This document shows positions 1-7,608 of a DNA stretch of 33,309 bases, piece by piece. The DNA is from Ilumatobacteraceae bacterium. Lineage in GTDB: Bacteria; Actinomycetota; Acidimicrobiia; Acidimicrobiales; Ilumatobacteraceae. The stretch spans positions 1-33,309 of the forward strand of contig SHUW01000007.1 of assembly GCA_009694465.1 (NCBI GenBank). The letters are read 5' to 3'. The position numbers and the translations under genes were made by a program. The notes under the pieces were generated by a model. That model was not told the DNA's origin, searched no databases, and saw only the letters and a program-made list of their open reading frames with translations. How positions within the stretch are numbered: position 1 is the first letter of the stretch; every line of letters starts with the position of its first letter.

Positions 1-1381
1 TCGGGAGATCAGAATGAAACGAAAGTGGAATACCTCGTCGAAGTACAGATGCAGAACGCACCATCGCATCAGCCCGCTCTGGGCCGAGACCCCATGCACT
101 GTATTTGTCGGCAAATCCAACGGGATAGTACGGATTCGCAGACACGATTGCGCCAAGGCTCGCAATTCTCTCCACTTGGTCTTCTGTTGAGTTTGCGAAG
201 TGCACGATGACTGTCCGGTGATCATTTCTTGGCTGACGGCGTTGTGCTTCCTCAATGATATTAAGAAGAACTTCAAGACCAAGGTCTCCATTGACATGAA
301 TATGTATCTGCCATTCGGCATCCCAATACGTGTCGAAAACGAGTTTTAGTTGATCGGGCTCCATCATCCATTGGCCGTGATGGTCAGCATCTGGTTTGCC
401 CTCGTGGTCAAGATACGGATCTTTCATCTGCATCAATTGTGAAATGATTGCACCATCGGCAAAAAGTTTGACATGACGGTCGATCACTCTGACCTTGGTT
501 CCTTTTCCAAATTCGACCTGGCTGCGAGCATCAGCCACGAACTGCTCGGGTGATAATTGCCGTAATGGTTGGGTGCGTGCCTCAACCATGAAAGTACTTT
601 CGAACGGCACATCCTCATGGCCGAGAATTTCTTGATAGAGATCCCATGGCTCACTTGTCCACCAAATACCAGGTTCGTTGATCGCTGTTACGCCGTTCAT
701 ATGCAGATACTCAACTAATTGTTTCAATCCGAGATGAAATCGCTCGCGGGTCATGAAATGCGGCAGAAGATACTTGGCGAGAACAATCATGAATCCGTTT
801 TCATAAAAATGCCCGCGCGCCCAATCGAGTTGCTCGCTGGCGAGTCCAAAGCCCTGGGTCAACTCGCGGGTCAGCCCAATTGCGTCGAGAGCCGCCGAAT
901 TGAGAATCCATTCATGACAGGATCGTTGCCATATTGCAGTCGGGCGATCTCCAACCAACATGTCAAGGCGTTCGCGACTGAGCGGACCATGCCACAACTC
1001 GTGCCATCCCCATGAAAAGAGCCACTCGCCTTCTGCTAAAGATTGGTGCGCAGCGAGTAGACGATCGCTGTAATCGGTTTCATTTGAACACGCCACAAAT
1101 GTTCGGTGTGGCAGAACCCAGTCTTCTGGTGCGATGACTTCGGTTGTCAACGTGGTCGCCCCAAGCATCGGGTGCAGGTGTTGATCAATGAGTCCCGGAA
1201 CAAGAACACGATCAGCGAACACATGTGACACTTCATGATCGGAGCCAACTGTGGCCAGAACTTCTTCAAGTGATCCGACGGCGAGAAACTGACCGTCTCG
1301 AATAGCTACTGCCTGCGCCGACGGGCAATCGTCGTTCATTGTGATGATGCGCTTGGCCTGATAGACAACGGTCTTTGACAT
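1..1381 (-). CDS. Amidohydrolase family 3 (YtcJ-like) protein, 3' end off the left edge
   Basis: My own reverse-strand translation from ATG at 1381 (MSKTVVYQAKRIITMNDDCPSAQAVAIRDGQFLAVGS...VLVPGLIDQHLHPMLG) is open to base 1. It is absent from the ORF track because it runs off the edge. Metal-dependent hydrolase motif DQHLHP. Confidence 0.9.
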   Translation of the reverse strand, partial: MSKTVVYQAKRIITMNDDCPSAQAVAIRDGQFLAVGSLEEVLATVGSDHEVSHVFADRVLVPGLIDQHLHPMLGATTLTTEVIAPEDWVLPHRTFVACSNETDYSDRLLAAHQSLAEGEWLFSWGWHELWHGPLSRERLDMLVGDRPTAIWQRSCHEWILNSAALDAIGLTRELTQGFGLASEQLDWARGHFYENGFMIVLAKYLLPHFMTRERFHLGLKQLVEYLHMNGVTAINEPGIWWTSEPWDLYQEILGHEDVPFESTFMVEARTQPLRQLSPEQFVADARSQVEFGKGTKVRVIDRHVKLFADGAIISQLMQMKDPYLDHEGKPDADHHGQWMMEPDQLKLVFDTYWDAEWQIHIHVNGDLGLEVLLNIIEEAQRRQPRNDHRTVIVHFANSTEDQVERIASLGAIVSANPYYPVGFADKYSAWGLGPERADAMVRSASVLRRGIPLSFHSDLP

Positions 1382-1387
1382 CACCGA

Positions 1388-1393
1388 ATCGTA
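1388..1393 (-). promoter_or_regulatory. -10-like TACGAT, 6 nt before the ATG (leaderless promoter candidate)
   Basis: Reverse strand TACGAT-TCGGTG-ATG. Confidence 0.6.
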
Positions 1394-1431
1394 ATCCGTA
1401 CAACAACCTGCCAAGTACGCAGGATGAGCAG

Positions 1432-1624
1432 TTAAATGCGCTTCAGGTCGGTAACCACGCCACCAGCAACACGCACGATGTCATTCGGATTCGCACCGAA
1501 GTTGTCATTCCACGTTCCCGCAGCAGCCCACACTTCGTCGTACTGCAACAAGTCTGGATCCACGAACACACGTAGTTGAGTGCTGTGACCAAAGGGAGGC
1601 ACGCCACCATTGGTTTAGGCAACC
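1432..1624 (-). repeat. Reiterated 3' fragment of the YbaK/EbsC-like gene, copy A (193 bp)
   Basis: Reverse strand encodes NGGVPPFGHSTQLRVFVDPDLLQYDEVWAAAGTWNDNFGANPNDIVRVAGGVVTDLKRI*, matching the C-terminus of the intact gene at 2775..3257. No proper start codon. Confidence 0.92.
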
Positions 1625-2139
1625 TATTCTCTTCCGAACGTTTCGAATTCTGCTCGTCCGATTGACATCACCAAGCAATCATCATCACCGAACCGTCGGG
1701 GTCCCACTTCTTCGAAACCGAGCCGTCTGTAAAACGCAATGGCACGTTGATTTGATTGCAGCGGATCAATCACTATTGAACTGGCACCGTGTTTGACAAA
1801 ACAGAGTTTGAATGCCTCTTCCATCATTTTGGTTCCATGACCCTTTGATCGATACATAGGCTCCCCAATCCAGATATCTATCGCCCACGAATTCTGCGGA
1901 GCGTTGTCACCCCAATAGTGGCTCTCCTCCTGAAGTGCATCAATGATTACAACCATTCCGATTGGAACAGAATCAACCTCTGCTATCAGAAACTCACGCC
2001 AGTTAACACTGCGTGGTAGTTCATAGTCCCAGTCATAATTGTCGTCGTCACCACCCCATGACGTGGCCTCTTCGTCTTCATCCCACTTCTCCAAAACTGG
2101 GACATCTTCAATTGTCGCGTTGCGAAGATTTACAGACAT
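1624..2139 (-). CDS. GNAT family N-acetyltransferase
   Basis: ORF of 171 aa; GNAT features (SKGHGTKMMEEAFK, NQRAIAFYRRLGFEEVG). Confidence 0.88.
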   Translation of the reverse strand: MSVNLRNATIEDVPVLEKWDEDEEATSWGGDDDNYDWDYELPRSVNWREFLIAEVDSVPIGMVVIIDALQEESHYWGDNAPQNSWAIDIWIGEPMYRSKGHGTKMMEEAFKLCFVKHGASSIVIDPLQSNQRAIAFYRRLGFEEVGPRRFGDDDCLVMSIGRAEFETFGRE

Positions 2140-2145
2140 AGAGAC

Positions 2146-2151
2146 AGATTA
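2146..2151 (-). promoter_or_regulatory. -10-like TAATCT, 6 nt before the ATG
   Basis: Reverse strand TAATCT-GTCTCT-ATG. Confidence 0.6.
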
Positions 2152-2155
2152 TGGT

Positions 2156-2348
2156 CTAAAGGCGCTTCAGGTCGGTGACTACTCCACCAGCGACACGAAC
2201 GATGTCTGTCGGCGATGCGCCAAAGTTGTCATTCCATGTTCCCGCTGCAGCCCACACTTCGTCGTACTGCAATAAGTCTGGATCCACGAACACACGTAGT
2301 TGAGTGCTGTGACCAAAGGGAGGCACGCCACCATTGGTTTAAGCAACC
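2156..2348 (-). repeat. Reiterated 3' fragment of the YbaK/EbsC-like gene, copy B (193 bp)
   Basis: Reverse strand encodes NGGVPPFGHSTQLRVFVDPDLLQYDEVWAAAGTWNDNFGASPTDIVRVAGGVVTDLKRL*. Same length and same upstream boundary as copy A. Confidence 0.92.
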
Positions 2349-2365
2349 CTTGACGAACATCTAGA

Positions 2366-2734
2366 TCAGTCGATTCGCTGCCCTGCTCGTTGGAGTACCT
2401 CTGCAAGTTCTCCAGTAATCGGCATTGGCTGAGTGGCCGGAACACGAGCACGCCCTGTGTTCCCCGTTGGATAGCGACCCGATAACGAACCAGGACCTGC
2501 CACAGCAATCCTCGATAACTGACCCCGAACTTCACGCACATCTCGTTGCAGCATTGCAGTGACAAACATGGACCCATGCACCCTCACATGCAACAGTGCC
2601 CACGGCTGACTGAGAACATGTGCATCTTCTAGCAGTGTCCAACAACGGTCGAAGTCCTTTGACTTGCGCGCTTGACGCGACTCAATGAGATTCTGTTGAA
2701 GACGTGTGTGAATCTCTTCAGTCGGACGAGCCAT
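2366..2734 (-). CDS. DUF3703-like protein
   Basis: ORF of 122 aa; pattern LLEDAHVLSQPWALLHVRVHGSMF...EVRGQLSRIAVAGPGSLSGRYPTGNTGRARV resembles DUF3703 as I recall it. Confidence 0.75.
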   Translation of the reverse strand: MARPTEEIHTRLQQNLIESRQARKSKDFDRCWTLLEDAHVLSQPWALLHVRVHGSMFVTAMLQRDVREVRGQLSRIAVAGPGSLSGRYPTGNTGRARVPATQPMPITGELAEVLQRAGQRID

Positions 2735-2740
2735 GTTTCA

Positions 2741-2746
2741 AATCTA
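2741..2746 (-). promoter_or_regulatory. -10-like TAGATT, 6 nt before the ATG
   Basis: Reverse strand TAGATT-TGAAAC-ATG. Confidence 0.6.
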
Positions 2747-2774
2747 TTTGATTAGGTCTGAAGAAACGCGTCGC

Positions 2775-3257
2775 CTAGGCGCGCTTGAGGTCAGTGACCA
2801 CGCCACCAGCAACACGCACGATGTCAGCAGGTGCTGCACCGAAGTTGTCGTTCCACGTTCCCGCAGCAGCCCACACCTCGTCGTACTGCAACAAGTCCGG
2901 ATCAACAAACACACGCAGTTGTGTGCTGTGACCAAAGGGAGGCACGCCACCAATCGGAAATCCTGTGGCTTGGCGCACGACATCAGCATCGACCCGAGTG
3001 CACTTCAATCCCCCAGCAGCCAAGGCCAACTTCTTTTCGTCAAGTTGGTTCACCCCGCTGACATACGCCAAGACCACTTCGCCATCGACAGCAAAAATCA
3101 GGCTCTTCACAATCTGCCCGAGCTCAACGCCGATGGCTGCTGCTGCATCGGCCGCAGTCTTGGTGCCATCGGGGAAACGCCGTGGAACAATCTCAAGCCC
3201 CAGGGCACGAGCAGCCTCGACCACGCGAACGACGTTGGGATGCAGTGCTTCACTCAT
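2775..3257 (-). CDS. YbaK/EbsC-family aminoacyl-tRNA deacylase-like protein (intact)
   Basis: ORF of 160 aa, YbaK/ProX fold pattern (GQIVKSLIFAVDGEVVLAYVSGVNQLDEKKLALAAG...TGFPIGGVPPFGH). Confidence 0.9.
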   Translation of the reverse strand: MSEALHPNVVRVVEAARALGLEIVPRRFPDGTKTAADAAAAIGVELGQIVKSLIFAVDGEVVLAYVSGVNQLDEKKLALAAGGLKCTRVDADVVRQATGFPIGGVPPFGHSTQLRVFVDPDLLQYDEVWAAAGTWNDNFGAAPADIVRVAGGVVTDLKRA

Positions 3258-3260
3258 AAA

Positions 3261-3515
3261 TCAAAGAGTACCCGATGCCAATAACTGATCAATTGCCTCA
3301 GCCAAACCTCGATCACGCTCAGTCACAACACCTTTATCGTGGCTGATCAAAGTGATATGCACCGTGTTGTAACTATTGCTCCAGTCGGGATGGTGATCCA
3401 TCGTTTCTGCCAAAACTGCCACTTGGTTCATGAAAGTCCAGGCCTCAACAAAATCGGCGAATTCAAAATCACGATGCAAACCTTGACCATCTTCATGCCA
3501 AGCGCTGAGATTCAT
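3261..3515 (-). CDS. 4a-hydroxytetrahydrobiopterin dehydratase-like (PCD/DCoH family)
   Basis: ORF of 84 aa with MDHHPDWSNSYNTVHITLISHDKGVVTERD; overlaps the sufC stop by 4 nt. Confidence 0.88.
   Translation of the reverse strand: MNLSAWHEDGQGLHRDFEFADFVEAWTFMNQVAVLAETMDHHPDWSNSYNTVHITLISHDKGVVTERDRGLAEAIDQLLASGTL
3265..3270 (-). promoter_or_regulatory. -10-like TACTCT, 7 nt before the ybaK-like ATG
   Basis: Reverse strand TACTCT-TTGATTT-ATG. Confidence 0.55.
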
Positions 3516-4303
3516 GGAAATAAATTTAATCCCATCGGATCGCTCGTCGACGCTTCTTCAACAGTTTCTTCGGGGGTGAAAGCAGCGTAGCCATCTCGCT
3601 CAAGAACGTCTGCGAGTTCAGGGCCGCCAGTTTCAACAATGCGTCCCTTCACCAAAATATGAATCTTGCTCGGGCGAAGTTCAGCCAGTACACGACTGTA
3701 GTGAGTGATCACTAGAGCACCGAGCCCATCCTGTTCGGTGGCATCCATGACCCGGCGGGCGCAATCACGCAATGCATCAACATCGAGACCAGAGTCCAGT
3801 TCATCCAAAATCACGAATAATGGTTTGAGGATTGACAATTGCAGTGTCTCGTTACGCTTTTTCTCGCCGCCTGATAAATCAACGTTAAGCGGACGTTCTA
3901 AGAACTTCTCGTCAAAGTGAATGCGAGCAGCCTCGGTCTTGAGCAAAGTATCAAGGCGAGCGATGTCTCCGTCGCGACCGCGGCCTTTCAAAGCCTCTGA
4001 CAAAACATCGTTCAACATTACGCCTGGAACTTCAGTCGGGTACTGCAGCACCAAGTGCAACCCAGCAACTGCACGTTGCCATGTCGGTAATCCCAACATT
4101 TCAACACCATCAAGTAGTACTGATCCAGAACTAATGCTGTAGCCCTTGCGACCCAACACGACTGCCGACAAAGTGCTCTTACCAGCACCATTCGGGCCCA
4201 TCACCGCGTGCACTTCGCCTGATGAAATTTTTAGGTTGACACCATGGAGAATCTTTTTATTACCCACTGATGCGTGAAGATCACGTATTTCAAGTGTGCT
4301 CAT
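3512..4303 (-). CDS. sufC: Fe-S cluster assembly ATPase SufC
   Basis: ABC ATPase with GPNGAGKST, LSGGEKKR; SufC-like context next to sufB/sufD. Confidence 0.95.
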   Translation of the reverse strand: MSTLEIRDLHASVGNKKILHGVNLKISSGEVHAVMGPNGAGKSTLSAVVLGRKGYSISSGSVLLDGVEMLGLPTWQRAVAGLHLVLQYPTEVPGVMLNDVLSEALKGRGRDGDIARLDTLLKTEAARIHFDEKFLERPLNVDLSGGEKKRNETLQLSILKPLFVILDELDSGLDVDALRDCARRVMDATEQDGLGALVITHYSRVLAELRPSKIHILVKGRIVETGGPELADVLERDGYAAFTPEETVEEASTSDPMGLNLFP

Positions 4304-4623
4304 GACGCTGATCCTTTTGCTGAAACATGTACATCGCCATTGATAACGCTGGCTGGAAAAACGGGTACGGGCTGTGTAGCAGGGAACGTGTTTGGTAGTC
4401 CCGTTGTCAAACTAAATGCGCTTCCGTGCTTAGGGCATTCGAGTTGCTTCTCGGCGCACCACACTTCACCACCATCACTGAGAGAAACGTTGGCATGGCT
4501 GCACACATCTCCGATGGCGTACACATCATCGCCAATTCGCACTAAGGCAACGGCAACGCCATCTACGGAGACTTTCTTAGCAGTACCGGATTCAATTTCA
4601 TCAAGGCGACAGACGATACTCAC
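4300..4623 (-). CDS. Rieske [2Fe-2S] ferredoxin-like protein
   Basis: ORF of 107 aa with Rieske motifs CSHANVSL and CPKHGSAF. Confidence 0.92.
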   Translation of the reverse strand: MSIVCRLDEIESGTAKKVSVDGVAVALVRIGDDVYAIGDVCSHANVSLSDGGEVWCAEKQLECPKHGSAFSLTTGLPNTFPATQPVPVFPASVINGDVHVSAKGSAS

Positions 4624-5795
4624 GCGCCGACTCCAATCGAGAGTTTGTTGGCAACCTGTTGGCGCAACGATGTGGCCAAATTACCCACTGGCAGTTGAGC
4701 AAGTACTTCATCAAAGAAACCAAGCACTACAAGCCGTTGCGCAACATCGGGGTTGACACCCCGACTCTCGAGATAGAACAACTGATCTTCGTCAATCGGG
4801 CCAACTGTTGATGCATGACTGCACTTCACATCATTGGTTTCGATTTCAAGGTTGGGAACGCTTTCGGCCCAAGCACCATGTGACAAAGTCAGGTTACGAT
4901 TGGTCTGATAGGCGACAGAACCTTTGGCATTGTTGTGAATCTTGATGAGGCCGGTGTACACACTTTTCGCAGTGTCCTGCACCGCACCCTTGAACAACAG
5001 ATCGCTCGTTGTGCGTGGCGCGGCATGCTCTTGCAAAGTACGAAAATCGTGCATTTGAGTTCCACCGGCAAAGTACAAGGCTACCTGACGAGTATTACTA
5101 CCTTGGCCGAGTAAACGAGCCGCAGTACTCACTCGCGCGTAATCTCCACCCAGGGCAACAGTGGCCAGCAAAGTGTCGGAATCGCGATGACCTTGACTGT
5201 GATGCTCACCAATCTGCCATGCCTTGTCACCAAGTTCATTGATCGCCAAATATCGCACTCGAGCAGATTGCGCTGCACGAGCATCAAGGACCGGGACTAC
5301 CAGCGAACGGACGCCGTCGTTAGAGATGAAACGCTCGACAACAGTGACCTCGCTATTTTCGGCTGCGTCAATCACGAGACGAGGAAAATAAATATTTCCT
5401 TCGCCATTTAAAGTATGAGTGACAATGATCGGTTCGCTCGCCACGACACCGCGCGCCACTGAGATCACGATCACATCCATGTGCGCCAGATTTAAACTGT
5501 TAAACAAGTCGCTACTTGTTGTCTCACTAAAGAGGTCGGTCAAAGCGGGATCAAGAGCAACTGCTGAGGCCGATACCTGAGTGACGGTCACCGCGTCGGA
5601 AAGCCCAGTGATGCTCGTCGGCGTTTCGGCCACGGTAAAGGTTGCAAGATCTAGTTCGCCAATGCGGCTATAACGCCAAATCTCTTCGTCAGTGGTGGGG
5701 AATGACGCTGCAGTTGCCCGCTCGTGAGCGGATTGGCGAACCTGAGACCAGGTGGCACCAAGACTGAGCGCCGCATCGGGGGTAAGAACGGGCAC
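4620..5795 (-). CDS. sufD: Fe-S cluster assembly protein SufD
   Basis: ORF of 391 aa, SufB/D C-terminal core (KGAVQDTAKSVYTGLIKIHNNAKGSVAYQTNRNLTLS; ETNDVKCSHASTVGPIDEDQLFYLESRG). Confidence 0.95.
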   Translation of the reverse strand: MPVLTPDAALSLGATWSQVRQSAHERATAASFPTTDEEIWRYSRIGELDLATFTVAETPTSITGLSDAVTVTQVSASAVALDPALTDLFSETTSSDLFNSLNLAHMDVIVISVARGVVASEPIIVTHTLNGEGNIYFPRLVIDAAENSEVTVVERFISNDGVRSLVVPVLDARAAQSARVRYLAINELGDKAWQIGEHHSQGHRDSDTLLATVALGGDYARVSTAARLLGQGSNTRQVALYFAGGTQMHDFRTLQEHAAPRTTSDLLFKGAVQDTAKSVYTGLIKIHNNAKGSVAYQTNRNLTLSHGAWAESVPNLEIETNDVKCSHASTVGPIDEDQLFYLESRGVNPDVAQRLVVLGFFDEVLAQLPVGNLATSLRQQVANKLSIGVGA

Positions 5796-5839
5796 GGGTA
5801 AATATTACTACCGCCGTAGGAGAAATTCACCCTACAAGT

Positions 5840-6190
5840 TCAGTCCTTTGGACGACGTCGAAAGAATCGCTTGATTCCCCGACCACGTTCTCGTTCGGCT
5901 TGGACCTCAGCGAGCACCTCGGCTCCAATGGCGTTGAGGATCTCTTCGGCCTCGTCGAGCACCGCCGCCGCTGATCCATCATCAAGACCTGGTGGTTCGG
6001 GCGTATTACGCGGTGGTATGAGAGATCCGTAAGCCCAGCCGGCATCAGGACGGCGAGCATAAGCACTGCAGTTTTCAGGACAACGCCAAGGAGCGTCAGG
6101 AGCTAAATCAAGATTGCACTTGCGAACCGTGTCGCCGTTGGCATAAGTACGGCTTTCGAAGTTTTTGCATTCTTGGCGCATGGGCATCAC
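5840..6190 (-). CDS. Conserved-looking small Cys-motif protein inside the SUF operon, unknown function
   Basis: ORF of 116 aa between sufB and sufD; N-terminal Cys set QECKNF-x11-RKCNLD-x9-RCPENCSAY. Confidence 0.8.
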   Translation of the reverse strand: MMPMRQECKNFESRTYANGDTVRKCNLDLAPDAPWRCPENCSAYARRPDAGWAYGSLIPPRNTPEPPGLDDGSAAAVLDEAEEILNAIGAEVLAEVQAERERGRGIKRFFRRRPKD

Positions 6191-6207
6191 CCCACACTAG
6201 ATGCGAA

Positions 6208-7608
6208 TTAGCCGACTGAACCTTCCATTTGGAGTTCAATCAAACGACTCCACTCAACGGCATATTCCATCGGCAAGGTACGTGTCACGGGCTCAATGAA
6301 ACCGTTCACGATCATGCCCATTGCCTGTTCTTGTGAAAGACCACGACTCTGCAAATAGAACAGTTGCTCATCGGCGATCTTGGACACGGTTGCTTCGTGG
6401 CCAATCTGTGCATCTTTCTCGCCGACTTCCATATACGGGAAAGTGCGACTTTCGCTTTGATCGTCAAGAATCAAGGCATCACACTGCACGTGGCTCTTGC
6501 AGCCGTAGGCGCCTTCATCAACGCGCACGAGTCCACGGTAAGCAGTGATGCCACCGTCTTTACTAATCGACTTGGAGACAATTTTTGATGTGGTTTCAGG
6601 TGCAGCGTGCACCATCTTGGCCCCAGCGTCTTGATGCTGGCCTGCGCCCGCATAAGCCACGCTCAGCACTTCGCCTGTTGCCTTGGGTCCAACCAAGTAC
6701 ACACTTGGGTACTTCATGGTGAGCTTTGAACCGATGTTGCCGTCGATCCATTCCATGTGGCCTTCTGCTTCAACACGAGCACGCTTGGTGACCAAGTTGT
6801 ACACGTTGGGTGACCAGTTCTGAATCGTCGTGTAGGTCACGTGAGCGCTGGGCTTAACGATGATTTCAACAACGGCCGAGTGCAGCGAATCGCTGGTGTA
6901 CACCGGTGCCGAACAGCCTTCAATGTAATGAACCTTGGAACCTTCATCGGCAATGATCAGCGTCCGCTCAAACTGTCCCGCGTTTTCAGCGTTAATACGG
7001 AAGTATGCCTGCAGTGGCATATCGCATTCAACGCCTGGCGGAACATAGATGAACGATCCGCCCGACCACACGGCACTGTTCAAAGCAGAAAACTTATTGT
7101 CCCCTGGAGGAATAATAGTGCCGAAGTACTGCTTGATGAGTTCGGGATACTCGCGCAACGCAGTGTCCATGTCACAAAACAAAATGCCCAATGCTTCAAG
7201 ATCTTCGCGGTTGCGGTGGAAGACAACTTCTGATTCGTATTGCGCAGTGACACCAGCCAAGTACTTACGCTCGGCTTCTGGGATGCCCAACTTTTCGTAG
7301 GTTGCTTTCATCTGCTCGGGGAGATCGTCCCACTCATCAACTTGTGCGGTCGCAGGACGGAGGTAATAAAAGATGTCTTGAAAATCAATGTCTGGCATGT
7401 TCTTGGAAAACCATGGTGACATTGGCTTCTTCTCGAACAAGCGCAGGCTCCGCTCACGGAAATCGGTCATCCACTTGGGCTCGCCCTTCCACCATGAGAT
7501 CTGGTCGACGACTGGCTTACTCAAACCTTTTTCGGGTTTGAACGCGTATTCCACGTCATCGCTCCAACCGAGGGAGTATTTGCTGAGGTCGAGATCAAAT
7601 GAGGTCAT
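6208..7608 (-). CDS. sufB: Fe-S cluster assembly scaffold SufB
   Basis: ORF of 466 aa; SufB signature ([79 protein letters not shown]). Confidence 0.97.

Follow-up and report, generated by a model that had tools for sequence, protein, structure and literature searches.

Arrays of small gene cassettes separated by repeated 3' ends of a ybaK-like gene in Ilumatobacteraceae

The question raised by this locus is how a series of genes came to stand behind a ybaK-like gene with copies of its 3' end between them. The initial annotation left two possibilities side by side, namely a site-specific insertion hotspot and a cassette-like module exchanging by recombination between direct repeats. We examined the locus itself, its counterparts in related genomes, and the recombination functions of the genomes that carry it.

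The ybaK locus of the window

The window, i.e. the whole stretch of 33,309 nucleotides that was analysed, belongs to a metagenome-assembled genome (MAG) of 1.48 Mb which is 69% complete. It contains a single family of direct repeats, consisting of three 192-nt copies that are ~84-91% identical and lie at 1433-1624, 2157-2348 (91% identical to the 1433-1624 copy) and 2776-2967 (84%). The last of these makes up the 3' part of a ybaK-like gene that is intact and specifies a product of 160 amino acids with an aminoacyl-tRNA editing domain; the other two copies are headless. Within the window's own genome the repeat is present at this locus only, and no Rfam families were found in the window. The features, in the order in which they are read, are as follows:

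2775-3257, minus strand: intact ybaK-like gene, the array anchor (ORF; PF04073, E 5.7e-25)
2776-2952, minus strand: repeated 3' part (tail) within the intact ybaK (direct repeat; match at 2781-2952)
2366-2734, minus strand: cassette 1, DUF3703 gene, 122 aa (PF12487, E 8.2e-35)
2334-2348, minus strand: junction motif GGTTGCTTAAACCAA, preceding tail copy B (from the sequence)
2156-2333, minus strand: tail copy B, 3' part of ybaK (headless, with an open frame and an intact stop)
1624-2139, minus strand: cassette 2, GNAT acetyltransferase gene, 171 aa (PF13523, E 3.6e-20)
1610-1624, minus strand: junction motif GGTTGCCTAAACCAA, preceding tail copy A (from the sequence)
1432-1609, minus strand: tail copy A, 3' part of ybaK (headless, with an open frame and an intact stop)
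2-1414, minus strand: cassette 3, amidohydrolase gene, cut by the contig end (PF07969, E 6.7e-34)

The repeat search, the ORFs and the Pfam matches bear out the gene order given in the initial annotation, i.e. ybaK, DUF3703, tail B, GNAT, tail A and amidohydrolase on the minus strand. Its finer points hold as well: both headless fragments share the 5' junction GGTTGCYTAAACCAATGGTGGCG and keep an open frame through to the ybaK stop, the GNAT stop (1624-1626) shares one base with the junction of copy A, and the start codons of the genes lie ~16-50 nt past a ybaK stop. The likely ATG of the amidohydrolase gene is at 1381.

Beside the anchor, at 3261-7608 on the minus strand, is an apparent Suf-type cluster with SufC-like ABC ATPase and SufD/SufB-like products, and a small pterin-dehydratase-like gene also adjoins ybaK; both assignments were made by eye from the translations. 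This neighbourhood of ybaK is common to the sister genomes G018 and G022.

Arrays and cassettes across the family

Relatives were searched for the repeat in two rounds, covering 61 relatives and then 222 genomes of the family, and many genomes proved to contain multiple tail copies spaced 0.6-1 kb apart. A tail profile built from 101 fetched loci recovered 199 copies in these loci, 73 of them anchored in ybaK and 126 free. The arrays are strictly polar: none of the 199 copies lay on the opposite strand, and in all 29 contigs having both kinds every free copy was downstream of ybaK. Arrays with free copies occur in ~50 genomes from at least nine genera of one Ilumatobacteraceae-like family (Acidimicrobiia), mostly lake-dwelling actinobacteria, and the largest has nine free copies in one locus. 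A scan for the junction pattern in ~85,000 prokaryote species, with one genome per species, returned 19 stretches. All were in MAGs, and all were either labelled as the same actinobacterial group or shared contigs with it, a few labels being evidently wrong. A phage or plasmid vehicle was considered and rejected, as the junction motif was not found in viral contigs, nor a similar repeat in plasmid and phage records.

Comparison with relatives, as the initial annotation had proposed, revealed no fixed order; the genes behind ybaK and their arrangement differ. The same structure in ~50 independently assembled genomes, among them G019 (7 contigs) and G033 (99% complete), likewise answers its concern that the repeats might be an assembly artefact. 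A single locus is lengthened stepwise with direct repeats of the 3' end of its target, its content varies among close relatives, and its cassettes are common to several species.

Neighbouring copies enclose 96 intervals, most of them 0.4-1.3 kb long and as a rule with one gene each. Cassettes measuring 300-1000 bp number 55; in 49 of these a single ORF takes up 60% or more of the length, and the main gene points in the direction of the array in 35 and the opposite way in 19. The cassette proteins scanned with Pfam include glyoxalase-like, GNAT, methyltransferase, DinB-like, TrmO-like, cation efflux, RibD-like and aminoglycoside-acetyltransferase-like proteins, together with several domains of unknown function. 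The first cassette behind ybaK at locus L125 (genome G090) specifies a member of the aminoglycoside 3-N-acetyltransferase family (PF02522, E 2.6e-75), that is, a gene of the antibiotic-resistance type within an environmental cassette array. In a family-wide count limited to ORFs of 110 aa or more, a TANNNT box was found 5-8 nt before the predicted start of 30% of cassette ORFs, vs 3-4% at control spacings. The earlier proposal of a TANNNT promoter for each gene therefore holds in the form of an enrichment, from which it follows that many cassettes carry their own promoter.

Cassettes have moved between genera. They are 92-98% identical across genera, while the ybaK 5' parts of those same genomes are only 62-75% identical, and near-identical cassettes recur in other genera at different array positions. 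The DUF3703 cassette of the window is 92.7% identical to one in G198, a member of another genus, over the full 439 bp, and the amidohydrolase cassette shows ~93% identity to cassettes in G063, G078, G195, G202 and G244, again in other genera. Reordering is best illustrated by G033 and G225, in which the ybaK 5' parts are 99.6% identical and the cassettes are permuted: the first cassette of G033 is the second in G225 (99.8% identical over 1350 bp), where it is preceded by a relative of the third cassette of G033. This evidence of exchange comes from comparison of MAG sequences, a type of data which is blind to excision and to live exchange.

Junctions, tails and crossover positions

With at most three substitutions allowed, the motif GGTTKCCWAARCCAA stands at the start of 88 out of 111 free copies and at none of the 73 anchored ones. 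No conservation was seen upstream of it at the free copies, and its exact matches in ten array genomes fall mostly within the arrays. A motif kept at many unrelated cassettes and absent from ybaK is not explained by recombination in the tails, and it looks like one half of a specific site. No other observation speaks as strongly for a specific step of capture or insertion; the compact joints, with the gene stop near the motif and a gene start right past the tail, also suggest a precise capture step. Free tails at L136:2451, L137:1834 and L178:1745 (array-oriented) have a different, mutually shared left sequence resembling ccgaccgctacgcaatcggt, possibly a second junction type.

The free tails are conserved as protein-coding sequence. 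Their stop is at the exact standard codon in 66 of 95 near-full-length copies and within a few codons of it in most others, and pN/pS is 0.22 for free and 0.24 for anchored tails, with dS ~1. Headless gene fragments under protein-level selection are unusual in themselves. Unless translated, a tail that lacks a start cannot be maintained for itself, and the simplest account of their conservation is that free tails alternate with, or recently derive from, a functional ybaK end. The divergence of the tail and that of the 5' part show a rank correlation of 0.80 in array-less loci and 0.25 in array loci, a contrast weakened by near-saturation of the array set (halves of the 5' part correlate with each other at only 0.36). 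This decoupling is in line with exchange of tails with the functional ybaK end. An expected increase in degraded copies with distance from ybaK was seen as a weak trend only. Some tails in the g4, g6, g2 and g10 loci (e.g. L144, L145, L184) have about four inserted codons in common (DGVND/DGIND), and this tail haplotype is spread across several genera.

The left junction motif is fixed, yet the breakpoints of recent transfers differ in position within the tail. For the 99.8% identical cassette of G033 and G225, identity reaches 134 bp into the upstream tail, and ~70 bp of the downstream tail are shared with one mismatch. In other pairs that are at least 95% identical on one side the shared run extends into the tail by anything from 1-2 to 38 bp, the identity of some near-identical cassettes being gone within 1-2 bp of the border. 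The ratio of mismatches to background drops towards the shared side from 0.89 to 0.39 in right-hand pairs; in left-hand pairs it is 0.29 at the shared end, with a noisy gradient beyond. Varying breakpoints inside a long repeat are the trace one would expect of homologous recombination, and would be compatible with an original site-specific step. A sharp step in divergence at the tail border in the first ybaK profile was discarded, since that same 5' part had been the basis for picking the pairs. When the upstream flanks were used for the choice instead, the step shrank to a modest rise, and therefore no fixed crossover is claimed from this profile.

Recombination functions, alternative explanations and known systems

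No array-linked recombinase was found among the families tested. Genomes G004, G008, G033, G109, G115, G190 and G227 each encode only two tyrosine recombinases, and in G033 (99% complete), G008 (97%), G004, G190 and G115 neither is near the array. In G033 and G004 their neighbours, identified by eye from the translations, are of the housekeeping type expected of XerC/XerD, i.e. dprA- and sigma-factor-like genes in both and trpS- and NUDIX-like genes in G033. None of the 20 proteins scanned with Pfam is a recombinase, serine recombinases are present in only 3 of 15 array genomes, and no integron integrase (TIGR02249) scored above the curated cut-off in any of the 15. ComEC, which allows DNA uptake and is no proof of it, is encoded by 13 of the 15.

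We regard it as somewhat probable that the locus is a ybaK-anchored additive cassette array, the genes of which are exchanged by homologous recombination in the ybaK tails. A unit would comprise a single gene or a small number of them, in many cases under a promoter of their own, with copies of the last third of ybaK between successive units. The units would be gained, lost, reordered and swapped across species, for the most part through homologous recombination of one ~180-bp tail with another, presumably with the use of RecA and on DNA probably taken up from other cells. A unit landing beside ybaK would supply a replacement 3' end, so that ybaK stays functional, and we infer that this repeated replacement is what keeps the circulating, cassette-borne tails protein-coding. 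Of the two possibilities raised at the outset, the module exchanging through direct repeats fits best, given that the breakpoints vary within the repeats; the site-specific hotspot is left without a supporting enzyme.

A site-specific step may nonetheless have been involved. A recombinase acting in trans (of a phage, an ICE or unannotated) might insert circular one-gene elements near the GVPP codons of ybaK, each element bringing a replacement tail as tRNA-gene islands do, with homologous recombination blurring the breakpoints later. We hold this to be possible but rather doubtful. It would account for the fixed 5' junction and its motif at free but not anchored copies, for the strict polarity downstream of ybaK, for a tail that leaves the target gene intact, and for ybaK tails that are more diverged than the 5' parts in most close pairs, and it has an analogy in cassettes that repeat tRNA 3' ends. 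However, neither the Pfam-scanned cassettes nor the conserved recombinases of nearly complete array genomes offer such an enzyme, viral contigs lack the motif and plasmid and phage records the repeat, and recent breakpoints are scattered rather than at one position. Equally tentative is the suggestion of a dedicated, non-integron gene-capture system that would recombine at the 3' third of a protein-coding gene. Here an enzyme or host pathway would join arbitrary genes to GGTTKCCWAARCCAA and a working ybaK tail, insertion would take place next to ybaK, and repeated replacement of the tail would preserve the host gene.

XerC/XerD acting at a dif-like junction site, as in pdif modules, seem a very unlikely cause even though XerC/XerD-like proteins are the sole tyrosine recombinases in several array genomes. 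The sequence CCCATAATNNNCGTTATG is among the pattern hits of most family genomes searched, usually once per genome (e.g. G019:C1:437079-437096 and G033:C45:148694-148711), and is likely to be the chromosomal dif of the family. It does not resemble the junction GGTTKCCWAARCCAA..GGCGTGCC, and no dif-like site was found at a module border. A sedentary chromosomal integron, or a derivative of one, is less probable still. The tandem one-gene cassettes of ~0.5 kb, the repeat after each gene and the sharing of cassettes recall such an element, but no IntI scores above the curated cut-off in the 15 array genomes, genes stand in both orientations, and the repeat is protein-coding and shows no excess DNA folding in its free copies (mean z 0.04 on the top strand, 0.38 on the bottom strand). 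That the window holds one old tandem duplication or an artefact of its MAG is hardly credible at all. The incompleteness of this MAG and the breaking of contigs at the repeats in several relatives might have pointed that way, but variable content and order in ~50 separate assemblies refute it.

If the exchange through ybaK tails favoured here is correct, integron-like sharing of genes is possible without a detectable integrase of its own in many genera of lake actinobacteria, and the coding tail of a host gene serves as the exchange region. The junctions of the ybaK arrays are precise, numerous and comparable, and so lend themselves to a concrete study of how a gene is turned into a cassette. 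In the literature on YbaK cassettes, non-integron cassette arrays, Ilumatobacteraceae islands and partial-duplication arrays, with incomplete coverage of subscription journals, we did not find the system described.

Several known systems share some of its features. Chromosomal integrons and superintegrons likewise line up cassettes of ~0.5 kb in tandem, most of them with a single gene and every gene followed by a repeat, and their cassettes, too, are shared across species; the ybaK arrays differ in having no IntI and no structured attC, genes in both orientations, and a 180-bp coding repeat. As in Islander-type islands and tycheposons, a 3' end borne by the insert keeps the target whole and the displaced copy marks the far end, whereas the ybaK units lack an integrase, are one gene in size and occur with up to nine copies, and their tail is 180 bp long in place of a short att core. 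The pdif modules (XerCD/dif cassettes) are likewise small and are moved although they encode no integrase themselves; the ybaK units differ from them in having a junction unlike the likely dif.

The closest described systems are additive flexible genomic islands (fGIs) with repeated tRNA 3' ends. In fGI-2 of 'Ca. Methylopumilus' small cassettes lie behind a tRNA gene with its 3' end repeated (PMC10872708), and fGI1 of 'Ca. Actinomarinales', also an additive island, repeats tRNA 3' ends and has been reported to be transferred between genera (PMC7771536). In the ybaK arrays, too, small cassettes pile up behind a host gene, the 3' end of which is repeated with the insertions. Unlike the tRNA-anchored islands, they have a protein-coding anchor, a coding tail of ~180 bp under protein-level selection, a separate 15-bp motif before the tail, and breakpoints that vary inside the repeat. 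We therefore consider the ybaK array to be a variant of additive islands and integron-like arrays, set apart from the tRNA-anchored islands by these four features.
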